A stretch of DNA of 41,645 nucleotides from contig PLGI01000125.1 of NCBI GenBank assembly GCA_003139775.1, positions 1 to 41,645 of the forward strand, given 5' to 3'. The position numbers were made by a program, and so were the translations under genes. Under the pieces are notes generated by a model that saw nothing but the letters and a program-made list of their open reading frames with translations, was not told the DNA's origin and searched no databases. Source of the stretch: Syntrophaceae bacterium (GTDB taxonomy: Bacteria > Desulfobacterota > Syntrophia > Syntrophales > Smithellaceae). Below are positions 24,238-40,889 of the stretch, piece after piece; positions within the stretch are counted from its first letter, which is position 1; every line of letters starts with the position of its first letter.

Positions 24238-24380
24238 AATCACTGGTATGAAACCCCAAGGCAAGCTTTGGAAACATATTCCGTAGCAAGCTGCGTGGTA
24301 TTATACCCTCCGCTTTGCGGGATTGTTCAACTTACCAATTCCGCTATGCTTCGCTTTCGGAATTGGAGTTTCACGAATAA
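24238..24380 (+). repeat. Multi-hairpin repeat family B, copy 1
   Basis: A ~140-bp chain of small palindromes: CCAAGGCAAGCTTTGG, a GCAAGCTGC unit, CCGCTTTGCGGG, then AATTCCG...CGGAATT and the end GGAGTTTCACGAATAAA. It closely matches 39725-39866 and, with an insert, 37057-37220. The reading frame through it is an artefact. Confidence 0.8.
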
Positions 24381-37310: not shown

Positions 37311-37796
37311 ATGCCGAAAACCAGAATAATAAAATATGCACTCATAGTATTTTTTCTTTTACCCTTGATCACTTTTGCAGAGACACAGGAAATAAAGGAA
37401 TATAAAGTAATAAAGGGAGATACCCTTTGGGATATCTCTAAGAAGGAATTGAATGATCCCTTCATGTGGCCCAAGATATGGAAAGAAAATTCCTGGATAG
37501 CAAATCCTCACTGGATCTATCCCGACCAGATGATCAAGATTCCTCTCTATTTTATTCAAGAGGAAAAACGCGCGGCGGAAGTCACGCCGAAATCTACAGA
37601 GGAAGTCACTCAAAAACCTGCCATTGTCGCAGAACAGCAATATAAAGGAATAACGGGAATTGTTTTGTATGATGGGACTGTTATTGAAGGACAAATACTC
37701 TTTATGAGTGCTGACATCGTAAAGATTCGCACAAAAGATGGAAATACATCATCATATTCTTTTATTAAGGAAGTCCAATCTTTTATCAAAGAATGA
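37311..37796 (+). CDS. LysM-domain exported protein
   Basis: A 161-residue exported protein with a signal peptide (cleavage likely after LITFA, residue ~24). Residues ~29-80 are a LysM peptidoglycan-binding domain: YKVIKGDTLWDISKKELNDP, WPKIWKENSWIANPHWIYPD and QMIKIP. The form with W-P-x-I-W is common for proteins that carry one LysM near the N-terminus. A Glu/Lys-rich linker follows, then a small beta domain (ITGIVLYDGTVIEGQILFMS), possibly Sm-like. It may tether or sense the cell wall. The ribosome site GAAGGAG is 7-8 nt before the ATG. Confidence 0.85.
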   Translation: MPKTRIIKYALIVFFLLPLITFAETQEIKEYKVIKGDTLWDISKKELNDPFMWPKIWKENSWIANPHWIYPDQMIKIPLYFIQEEKRAAEVTPKSTEEVTQKPAIVAEQQYKGITGIVLYDGTVIEGQILFMSADIVKIRTKDGNTSSYSFIKEVQSFIKE

Positions 37797-38062: not shown

Positions 38063-39022
38063 TTACTTATTTAAAATCTCTATCATTAAGATAATATTTT
38101 CTACGGCATTATTCAGAGGCGCACTGCCCTCTTCGACCTGCCCGATTGTTTTTAACCGCGCCGTAAAATCATTTATTTTCTGATTTTTCAGTTCAGCGGT
38201 CAGGATAGTTTTACCCTGCATTATTTGCCTGTTTATATTTTTTGCCTCATATTTTATCAGAAGCTTCTCAACCTCTCCTGCAGCAATATTGATATCGTCA
38301 ACTTTTAACAAAACATTTGGCCTTTGCATTACGCTTTGTGCATGCGGAGTTCTGCTTGCCCTTATGGCGGCGTCTAGAATATTGCTTTCTTTTTTCTTTT
38401 CCAATTCAGTTTCTGAGAGTTCAACAGATTTTACCGCCGGAGCGCTTACGTATTTGTCGGCTTTTATATCGGGACCAATTTGCCCGTTTACATCTTTTGC
38501 CGCGTCAACCGCCATTTCACTAACTTTTTTCCGCGGCGTCTCCTTTTTTTCTATTACTTGATCTTCTTTTTGTATATCTTCATCCGTGGATGTTTTCATT
38601 TTTTGTTCCGGCAATTTACTTTTTTGAACTTCCATAACCGGCACCGGAACAGATGAAGGCACAACCTCTTTGATCTGCTCTTCCCCTGCCCTGTAAATGT
38701 AAACGGCCAGCATAGCGATAAATACTGTGGCTAATATCTGAACAGGAATTTTTATCCGTAACGGATAAAACCATTTTTGCACAAGACTTTTCTTTTCGGA
38801 TTCCTCACGCACTTTGGCCATAATTTTTTGCTTGAACCAGGCAGGCGGCTCAACTTCGGCAAGATTATTCACCAGCGCATGTGTCTTACTCAGTTGGACA
38901 AGCACCTTGGTGCATTGCGGACATGATTTCAAGTGTTCCTCAACGGCTTGTTTATCCGCACCGGAAAGCGAATCATCCAGATATAACGACAGGTTGTTTT
39001 CAATTTCTTTGCAATTTTTCAT
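38063..39022 (-). CDS. Membrane anti-sigma factor with zinc finger (zf-HC2, DUF2275-like C-terminus)
   Basis: A 319-residue regulator that holds its ECF sigma factor at the membrane. The N-terminal zinc anti-sigma domain has C4, H30, C34 and C37 (EEHLKSCPQCTKVL). A single helix at about 88-110 (VQILATVFIAMLAVYIYRAG) crosses the inner membrane. The periplasmic part is Lys/Glu rich and then folded, ending with ELKNQKINDFTARLKTIGQV, which resembles the DUF2275-type region seen in related anti-sigma proteins. The start overlaps the stop of the sigma gene by 4 bp, so the two are translationally coupled. A periplasmic or redox signal on the zinc site probably releases the sigma factor. Confidence 0.88.
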   Translation of the reverse strand: MKNCKEIENNLSLYLDDSLSGADKQAVEEHLKSCPQCTKVLVQLSKTHALVNNLAEVEPPAWFKQKIMAKVREESEKKSLVQKWFYPLRIKIPVQILATVFIAMLAVYIYRAGEEQIKEVVPSSVPVPVMEVQKSKLPEQKMKTSTDEDIQKEDQVIEKKETPRKKVSEMAVDAAKDVNGQIGPDIKADKYVSAPAVKSVELSETELEKKKESNILDAAIRASRTPHAQSVMQRPNVLLKVDDINIAAGEVEKLLIKYEAKNINRQIMQGKTILTAELKNQKINDFTARLKTIGQVEEGSAPLNNAVENIILMIEILNK

Positions 39023-39651
39023 AAATCACCAATAACTTTAGTCAGACAATCTTTAAGCGCGTTGCGGGCGCGGGAAAGTCTGGATTTTACAGTCCCCTCA
39101 GATATCTTCAAAATATCGCGTATTTCTTCATAAGAAAACCCCTGTATGTCTCTGAGCACCAGAACTTCTTTGTATTCTTCATCGAGCGAAGTTATGCATT
39201 TCTGCACCTGAGTTTCCCTTTCGCGCCGCTCCATCTGCGTGCCGGGATTGGCGTCATTGATAAACGATTGATTAATTATCCATTCTGTTTTCATTTCTCC
39301 CGAATCATCAAGGGAAATTTCTCTGCGTTTAGCTGAGCGGCTCAGTTGCTTTAAACGGTTTTTGGAATAGTTAACGACGATTCTATACAGCCACGTGGAA
39401 AATTTCGCTTCCGCCTTAAAATTCTTAATGGATTTATAAGCCGAGAGAAAAGCCTCCTGCGTGACATCGCAGGCTTCATCGTAATCACCCGTCATTCTGA
39501 ACGCAATGTTAAACATTTTTTTCTGATGTCGTTCGACCAGCACTTCAAAAGCGTCAGTGTTACCCTTATGACAAGCGAGGACAAATTCAATATCTTCGTC
39601 CGCGTCTATTGTTTTTTTGCTATCTATTATATTAGACATCCACAGCAACAC
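39019..39651 (-). CDS. ECF-family RNA polymerase sigma factor (RpoE-like)
   Basis: A 210-residue sigma factor (from the GTG). Region 2 has FEVLVERHQKKMFNIAFRMT, then DEACDVTQEAFLSAYKSIKN and FKAEAKFSTWLYRIVVN. Region 4 has YKEVLVLRDIQGFSYEEIRD and ILKISEGTVKSRLSRARNAL. There is no region 3, as in all ECF factors. A GTG at 39651 has AAGGGGA 6 nt upstream; an ATG four codons later (39639) is the alternative. It is coupled to the zinc-finger anti-sigma gene. The divergent gene at 40092 has a matching promoter, so it is a likely target. Confidence 0.93.
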   Translation of the reverse strand: MLLWMSNIIDSKKTIDADEDIEFVLACHKGNTDAFEVLVERHQKKMFNIAFRMTGDYDEACDVTQEAFLSAYKSIKNFKAEAKFSTWLYRIVVNYSKNRLKQLSRSAKRREISLDDSGEMKTEWIINQSFINDANPGTQMERRERETQVQKCITSLDEEYKEVLVLRDIQGFSYEEIRDILKISEGTVKSRLSRARNALKDCLTKVIGDL

Positions 39652-39660
39652 TTTTGTTCC
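39632..39660 (-). promoter_or_regulatory. ECF-like promoter motif overlapping the sigma gene start
   Basis: On the minus strand GGAACAA (39660-39654), a 16-bp spacer and GTCTAA (39637-39632), the same spacing as the motif before the 40092 gene. It overlaps the presumed ribosome site and start codons. So it is either a chance match or a sign that translation starts further in. Confidence 0.3.
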
Positions 39661-39724
39661 CCTTAATTTTAGCTCATGTGAGTTGGAATTTATCACAATA
39701 TTGCTTTATATTCATACTGTTTTT

Positions 39725-39866
39725 GAATCACGGGTATGAACCCCAAAGCAAGCTTTGGAAACAGGTTCCACAGCAAGCTGCGGGGTATTTAAACCCTCCG
39801 CTTCGCGGGATTATTCAACTTACCAATTCCGCTACGCTTCGCTTTCGGAATTGGAGTTTCAATAAT
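39725..39866 (+). repeat. Multi-hairpin repeat family B, copy 2
   Basis: Closely matches 24238-24380. It has CCAAAGCAAGCTTTGG, GCAAGCTGCGGGG, CCGCTTCGCGGG, and AATTCCG ... CGGAATTGGAGTTTC. The bases differing from copy 1 often keep the stems paired. It lies in the space between the divergent sigma and 40092 genes; the rest of that ~400-bp space holds the promoter at 40016. Confidence 0.8.
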
Positions 39867-40015: not shown

Positions 40016-40044
40016 GGAACTTTTTTGCCGCTTATCTTGTCTAA
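40016..40044 (+). promoter_or_regulatory. ECF sigma-type promoter
   Basis: GGAACTT (40016-40022), a 16-bp spacer starting with a T run, then GTCTAA (40039-40044). This is very close to the sigma-E-type consensus. It lies 47 bp before the start codon of the secreted protein, leaving room for a ~40-nt leader with AAAGGAGG. Confidence 0.75.
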
Positions 40045-40091
40045 CCGGTAAAAGGCCATCAAAAGCCGAAAAATTCACAAAGGAGGAATAT

Positions 40092-40889
40092 ATGAAAACA
40101 TTGTTATCTGCATGCGTTATTTTATTGATGTGGATAAGCATTGCCGCGGCGGCAACTATCGGCGATGCAGTTGAGGTTAGCGTTATTACTGACAACGGGT
40201 GGGCGCTGCCGTTTTATCCGGAGAAAATCCGACATGATCTTAAGAAGGTTTATGCCGAAGCCTTTAAGGGGGATCATTACCGGATTGTTGTCCGCAATAA
40301 ATTAAATCGCCGGGTCGGGGTTGTTGTTGCAGTTGACGGCAGGAATATCATTTCCGGTGAAAAATCATGGCTAAAGAATACGGAAAGAATGTATATTATT
40401 GACGCGTATTCCACCAATGAATATTCAGGCTGGCGGACCGGACAGGATAAAATTAACCGCTTTTATTTTACCGATGTTCCCGATTCATATGCCGCTGCCT
40501 TTGGTGATGAATCCGCTATGGGAGTGATTGCTGTTGTTGTTTACCCGGAAATTCAGCGCTACGAACCGCCAATGAATTATTCCTATCTGAACCATGCAAA
40601 GAAAATGAAAGAACAATCCAGGGACAAAGCAATGGCTCCTTCTGCGCAAGGCAATACTAAGGCTATAGAAAGCGCCGGCACAGGTTATGGTGCAGAAGAA
40701 TATTCACCTTCATATCGCGTCCAATTTGATCCTGAAAATAGAGCAGTTGAATCTATCCTGATCAAATATGAATGGCACAAAACACTCTGTCATATGAATA
40801 TTATTAACTGTGGCAGGACATATGAACACTCATACAATCGGCTTTGGGGAAATGACGGTTATGCCCCGCCTCCACCATGTCGGCGTTGA
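40092..40889 (+). CDS. Exported protein, probable ECF sigma target, unknown function
   Basis: A 265-residue exported protein. The signal peptide is residues 1-~20 (CVILLMWISIAAAA). The mature part starts with a beta-rich domain: WALPFYPEKIRHDLKKVYAE, YRIVVRNKLNRRVGVVVAVD and GRNIISGEKSWLKNTERMYI. It goes on with SGWRTGQDKINRFYFTDVPD and MGVIAVVVYPEIQRYEPP. This strand pattern, with N-K-x-x-R-V-G-V-V-V-x-V-D-G-x-N, is typical of a family of secreted proteins of unknown role. The C-terminus (about 225-265) has three Cys and a Pro-rich end (YAPPPPCRR). The ribosome site AAAGGAGG is ideal. The ECF promoter upstream links it to the neighbouring sigma factor and thus to envelope stress. Confidence 0.72.
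   Translation: MKTLLSACVILLMWISIAAAATIGDAVEVSVITDNGWALPFYPEKIRHDLKKVYAEAFKGDHYRIVVRNKLNRRVGVVVAVDGRNIISGEKSWLKNTERMYIIDAYSTNEYSGWRTGQDKINRFYFTDVPDSYAAAFGDESAMGVIAVVVYPEIQRYEPPMNYSYLNHAKKMKEQSRDKAMAPSAQGNTKAIESAGTGYGAEEYSPSYRVQFDPENRAVESILIKYEWHKTLCHMNIINCGRTYEHSYNRLWGNDGYAPPPPCRR

Follow-up and report, generated by a model that had tools for sequence, protein, structure and literature searches.

A very likely ECF promoter links an exported-protein gene to its neighbouring sigma/anti-sigma pair in a Syntrophaceae bacterium, with a second promoter-like site on the sigma start codon

The window considered here is the whole stretch of DNA that was analysed, 41,645 nucleotides of a Syntrophaceae bacterium (contig PLGI01000125.1, assembly GCA_003139775.1). 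Towards its right end it carries an ECF sigma factor gene and an anti-sigma gene on the reverse strand, from which the gene for a predicted exported protein, here called X, diverges. The sigma gene (39019-39639, reverse strand) encodes 206 residues counted from its ATG, with an in-frame TTG at 39648-39646 as an alternative start. Its product contains regions 2 and 4 (Sigma70_r2 and Sigma70_r4_2, above the Pfam cut-offs) and no other domain, and it scores 116 bits against TIGR02937 (cut-off 42.9) and 142 bits against the RpoE equivalog TIGR02939, below the cut-off of 236.15. The anti-sigma gene (38063-39022, reverse strand), whose ATG overlaps the sigma stop codon (ATGA), encodes an N-terminal zf-HC2 domain (47 bits, cut-off 22.2), DUF2275 and one hydrophobic segment at about residues 91-110, a candidate membrane span with its hydropathy peak at residues 92-110. 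These Pfam matches bear out the arrangement proposed in an initial annotation, in which the secreted-protein gene diverged from an ECF sigma/zinc anti-sigma operon. Beyond the anti-sigma gene lies a gene for a LysM-domain protein with a hydrophobic start (37311-37796, forward strand), where no promoter of the kind described below was found.

The X gene (40092-40889, forward strand) encodes 265 residues with an N-terminal signal-like segment. The window protein gave no Pfam or NCBIfam match at E 0.1; 8 of 32 X homologues touch DUF7918 (best E 1.6e-4), the window protein not being among these, and the alignment of the 32 homologues has 49 invariant columns in the list produced by the tool. A second structural model, made for the mature protein (mean pLDDT 72, vs 49 for the first), predicts a beta-sandwich, a disordered linker and a conserved tail. 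No match at E 0.001 or better was obtained when this model was compared with the PDB by Foldseek; the best VIA-align score, a Z of 6.6 to MSP domains, is weak and within the range of common arrangements, and a sequence search against solved structures returned nothing useful. Those relatives of X that bear a name are from MAGs carrying the label Smithella, which belongs to Syntrophales, or Deltaproteobacteria.

Upstream of X, on the forward strand, the -35 box GGAACTT (40016-40022) is followed by a spacer of 16 nucleotides (40023-40038) and the -10 box GTCTAA (40039-40044), and a ribosome-binding site, AAGGAGG, is read from the sequence at 40080-40086. Direct reading confirmed what the initial annotation had stated, that is, 47 bp between the end of the -10 box and the ATG of X at 40092. 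With a third-order Markov model of the window, 0.0025 occurrences of GGAACTT-N15..17-GTCTAA were expected on its two strands together, vs 1 observed. A search of the genome for the two boxes, which had been suggested together with the promoter, located the looser form GGAAC-N18-GTCTAA at exactly three places in the 3.4-Mb assembly. The sigma gene is flanked by two of them, 40016-40044 (forward strand) and 39632-39660 (reverse strand); the third, C163:30945-30973, was rejected as a target because it lies within an open frame of the opposite strand and no start was found behind it. The initial annotation had missed the exact copy at 39632-39660, which stands on the sigma start codon and changes the likely feedback of the circuit.

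Relaxing the pattern to two mismatches gave 6 places in the window vs a mean of 7.9 in shuffled sequences, with no enrichment, and therefore weight was put on exact sites only. At nine of 30 one-mismatch sites of the same genome that were inspected, one of which had only 68 bases behind it, nothing promoter-like with a fitting start close behind was found, the nearest start lying at 92 nt (C108). Near-identical GGAACTT(C/G/A)A...GAAAGTCTCA strings occur seven times among the one-mismatch sites (C18, C55, C138, C149, C188, C193, and C201) and, given these seven copies, probably belong to a repeated element.

X is present in 18 of 99 relatives, and 17 orthologues were tested for the promoter, the fragment in G068 being left out. 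All 17 carry the site upstream, 15 exactly (GGAAC and GTCTAA matched, with N17 or N18 between them) and two with one mismatch (G038 and G057). Judged by contig and coordinates, eight of these genes adjoin the sigma/anti-sigma pair and nine do not, eight of the latter being located on another contig and the one in G015 about 14 kb away. The proposal that a sigma-E-type promoter links X to the adjacent pair is thus upheld, since the site is kept wherever X lies and occurs together with the pair (see below), and 40016-40044 is very likely the promoter of X and linked to the neighbouring ECF sigma factor. In a sample of the phylum, X was detected in 21 of 395 genomes; G000 and G003 were left out, and 18 of the remaining 19 had upstream DNA. 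The site precedes X in 10 of these 18 (six exact, four with one mismatch) and is lacking in eight. Seven homologues from two families elsewhere in the phylum (f48, and f30 genus g130), L214-L217, L219, L221, and L226, are without the promoter, evidencing that X is not tied everywhere to this type of sigma factor.

The same promoter precedes a second exported protein, with VIT and VWA domains, in 24 of 24 orthologues (23 exact, G087 with one mismatch), orthologues being defined at 68% identity or more, a cut-off set after the lists were seen. Nine VIT homologues were found at 28-57% identity, and none of the six tested has the site. The VIT and VWA domains were identified in L101, the only protein scanned, which scores 424 bits over residues 57-629 against TIGR03788, below the curated cut-off of 551.65, and ends in an AgmX/PglI domain (NF033768). 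A VIT gene was not detectable in the genome of the window. Across the 99 relatives the strict pattern GGAACTT-N15/16-GTCTAA occurs at 43 places. By our own count, 14 of these stand before X, 20 before VIT and two before the sigma operon, 36 in all, and the remaining seven lead other genes or nothing clear. The small regulon claimed at first is retained as regards the link between promoter and pair, but not with X as its sole target, as relatives put VIT-VWA under the same promoter; sequence comparison points to a likely small regulon that, in relatives, includes the VIT-VWA protein. A strict site also stands before a 157-residue Cys-containing protein with a signal-like start (L097, G011:C145:2645-2673, reverse strand) and before a 447-residue protein with a hydrophobic start (L106, G084:C1:2891089-2891117, reverse strand), and by their sites these two proteins are possible further members of the regulon. 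No tie between ECF sigma factors and VIT proteins was found in the open-licence literature searched.

The distribution of the pair agrees with that of its putative targets. X or VIT was found in 33 of 38 pair-bearing genomes vs 3 of 61 others (Fisher p 1.4e-17, with shared ancestry ignored), the pair being called present at an anti-sigma match of E 1e-15, a cut-off also set after the lists were seen. Likewise, the pair-bearing genomes hold 40 strict sites vs 21 for reversed-pattern controls, and the 61 genomes without the pair hold 3 vs 22. The pair occurs without X or VIT in G005, G006, G025, G088, and G094, and a target without a detected pair in G068 (84% complete), G072 (67% complete), and G087 (96% complete). 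A search allowing two mismatches in G005, G006, G025 and five other genomes gave counts like those of the reversed control and no clear target. Based on this evidence, the ECF sigma factor is very probably the activator of X, the exported-protein gene beside it.

The second exact site of the locus (39632-39660, reverse strand) lies on the sigma gene itself, its -10 box (39637-39632) overlapping the ATG (39639-39637) within ATGTCTAA. In the window's family, to which MAGs labelled Smithella belong, each of the 23 genomes that bear the pair has the site, 22 of them exactly and G017 with ATCTAA. NTGTCTAA holds the start codon, for which ATG is used in 18, GTG in three, TTG in one and ATA in one. 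Between this codon and region 2, 22 of the 23 keep a distance divisible by three despite changes in length (78, 84, 87, and 93), and in these 22 the sigma frame contains 0 stops in 569 codons, compared with 41 and 45 stops among 547 codons in the two other frames, indicating that translation enters from upstream. Together with a codon 2 that is TCT in every one of the 22 orthologues, the kept frame indicates that the stretch is under two constraints, the reading of the protein and that of a DNA box. The single family sigma gene with this frame broken is that of G060 (L164), in which sigma must start downstream of the site, which would allow positive feedback there. In 19 of 23 orthologues there is a TTG in the same frame at -9, which also lies upstream and may be the true sigma start.

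Farther upstream, 58 bp before the sigma ATG, the partly conserved element TGTGATAAATT (39687-39697, reverse strand) is a candidate promoter of the sigma gene. A TGTGRTAAATT-like element is found 56-62 bp before the sigma start in 14 of 23 family orthologues, the nine without it including G074, which lacks upstream DNA, and this element could be the promoter for the full mRNA. A sigma-70 consensus scan made no call at 39687-39697, leaving a sigma-70 promoter for the sigma gene unsupported, and a scan of 19 family loci that took in the 300 bp before the sigma gene showed no further ECF-type site, exact or with one mismatch.

Altogether, we consider highly probable an explanation in which the neighbouring sigma factor reads the promoter of X, is restrained and released by the anti-sigma factor, and has a second site on the start codon of its own gene. 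Sequence comparison shows that both sites are conserved, that the promoter is linked to two exported families and co-occurs with the pair, and that the start region is translated; what we infer is that this sigma factor and no other is the reader, that a signal is sensed and sets it free, where transcription begins, and which sign the feedback has. The membrane anti-sigma factor would hold the sigma factor until an envelope signal frees it, as is suggested by zf-HC2, DUF2275, the hydrophobic segment and the usual behaviour of such pairs, and RNA polymerase with the sigma factor would then transcribe X and, in related genomes, VIT-VWA. At promoters of the ECF class, transcription usually starts a few bases past the -10 box, and hence the start at the second site would fall past the sigma start codon. 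The RNA would begin about 13-15 nt beyond the first base of the ATG and carry the anti-sigma gene without the sigma start codon, and holoenzyme bound there would perhaps act as a roadblock to the promoter of the full mRNA. By its position, the site would appear suited to increasing the inhibitor of the very sigma factor that reads it. The anti-sigma protein could be translated from this short mRNA, because its start overlaps the sigma stop and GGTGA stands in front of it in 21 of 23 family orthologues, although the same letters encode a conserved peptide and translational coupling to sigma could limit that translation. That the family has in this way an ECF operon with reversed feedback, making anti-sigma mRNA and not sigma, with a possible block of the upstream promoter, is a tentative reading that falls just short of an even prospect.

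Positive autoregulation is described for most ECF operons (PMC8103513), and the start-codon site could serve this ordinary loop if sigma were made from a start downstream of the ECF transcription start. Such a start is obligatory in G060, and 13 of the 22 other orthologues have one or two in-frame ATG, GTG or TTG codons downstream. These are found at scattered positions, however, and nine of the 22, the genome of the window included, have none between the site and region 2; in addition, the frame kept in 22 of 23 and free of stops places the entry of translation upstream, which makes this possibility unlikely. A different account would see no promoter at all in the site and would take GGAAC as belonging to a Shine-Dalgarno-like AAGGGG and ATGTCTAA as simply where a conserved peptide begins, and it fits the AGGGG found before the site in most orthologues as well as the frequent TTG at -9. 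It is harder to reconcile with codon 2, which alone among 51 columns with an invariant, degenerate amino acid is always written with one codon, with a spacing from GGAAC of 18 in 23 of 23, as in most X and VIT promoters, and with a TCTAA that stays constant next to a start codon whose first base changes, and it is judged quite unlikely.

With regard to the X promoter, the genome of the window has other ECF-like genes (33-38% matches), and therefore the reader of this promoter is assigned from linkage. That one of these other sigma factors reads it would also agree with the near-complete genome G087, which keeps VIT with a one-mismatch site and has no detected pair. Nevertheless, the pair and the targets co-occur, the pair is often beside X or VIT or in one operon with them, and the same boxes stand at the pair's own locus, and recognition by another sigma factor is considered improbable.

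Outside the family, 15 pair-bearing genomes were examined, in two of which (G088 and G094) no sigma gene was found. In 10 of the 13 left, the sigma gene lies behind an ordinary ECF promoter, either its own or that of a target gene. In six, a target gene with its ECF promoter precedes the sigma gene in the same orientation (VIT in G081, G084, G037, and G053; X in G054 and G082), and in four an ECF site stands ahead of the sigma gene (exact in G058 and G085, one mismatch in G038 and G057). G042 shows a one-mismatch site at the sigma start, and no ECF site was found in the stretch examined in G096 and G093. As the ordinary layout is common outside the family, the positive layout seems to be the older one, an order deduced without a tree.

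In promoter form, in a predicted membrane anti-sigma factor and in exported targets, the locus resembles the sigma-E (RpoE)-RseA system of Escherichia coli, whose sigma factor recognizes a GTCTAA-like -10 box. The -35 box GGAACTT is likewise given for E. coli RpoE (PMC8103513). Unlike RpoE, the sigma factor described here stays under the equivalog cut-off (142 vs 236 bits), its anti-sigma factor starts with a zf-HC2 zinc finger and has DUF2275, the targets are X and VIT-VWA, and the site at its own locus overlaps the start codon. As regards the VIT-VWA target, L101, the one protein scanned, resembles the marine proteobacterial sortase target proteins of TIGR03788, though below the cut-off, and differs from these by its AgmX/PglI C-terminal domain (NF033768).

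For feedback at the sigma factor's own gene, the nearest precedent found is, by analogy, HrpL of Pseudomonas syringae, for which negative autogenous control by a block from the neighbouring hrpJ promoter has been described (PMC5263251; PMC8999054). There too the ECF sigma gene diverges from a target, and the sigma gene is transcribed less when HrpL holoenzyme is bound close by, the likeness to the present locus being one of anatomy only (PMC5263251). In HrpL the block is exerted at the hrpJ promoter and on a sigma-54 promoter, and no anti-sigma factor is known (PMC5263251); at the present locus, instead, the site overlaps the sigma start codon, and transcription from it would also cover the anti-sigma gene. 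Sigma-E of Streptomyces coelicolor is described as activator or repressor, and the two cases share the bound holoenzyme as a possible roadblock to overlapping or upstream promoters, with the difference that the description for S. coelicolor concerns other target genes and not the factor's own start codon (PMC10771440). A sigma-gene start codon joined to an ECF promoter had no precedent in the open-licence literature searched.

For X and VIT-VWA, two exported families with no function assigned, the analysis provides a probable regulator together with its promoter and a phylogenetic profile. Should the start-codon promoter work as proposed, it would provide a natural circuit in which a sigma factor feeds its inhibitor and not itself, unlike the usual positive loop; reversed feedback, if true, would make of this ECF switch a device for a short, self-limiting pulse, and the near relatives with the usual layout would be a ready control for such a circuit.

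In the intergenic stretch between the sigma gene and X, no inverted repeats were detected at the settings of the tool. The window contains two copies of a 26-base repeat, CCGCTACGCTTCGCTTTCGGAATTGG, at 39829-39854 and 24341-24366, one copy being exact and the other having one mismatch, with 0 expected, and in some relatives CTTCGC-rich letters resembling it were seen by eye ahead of X or of the sigma gene.
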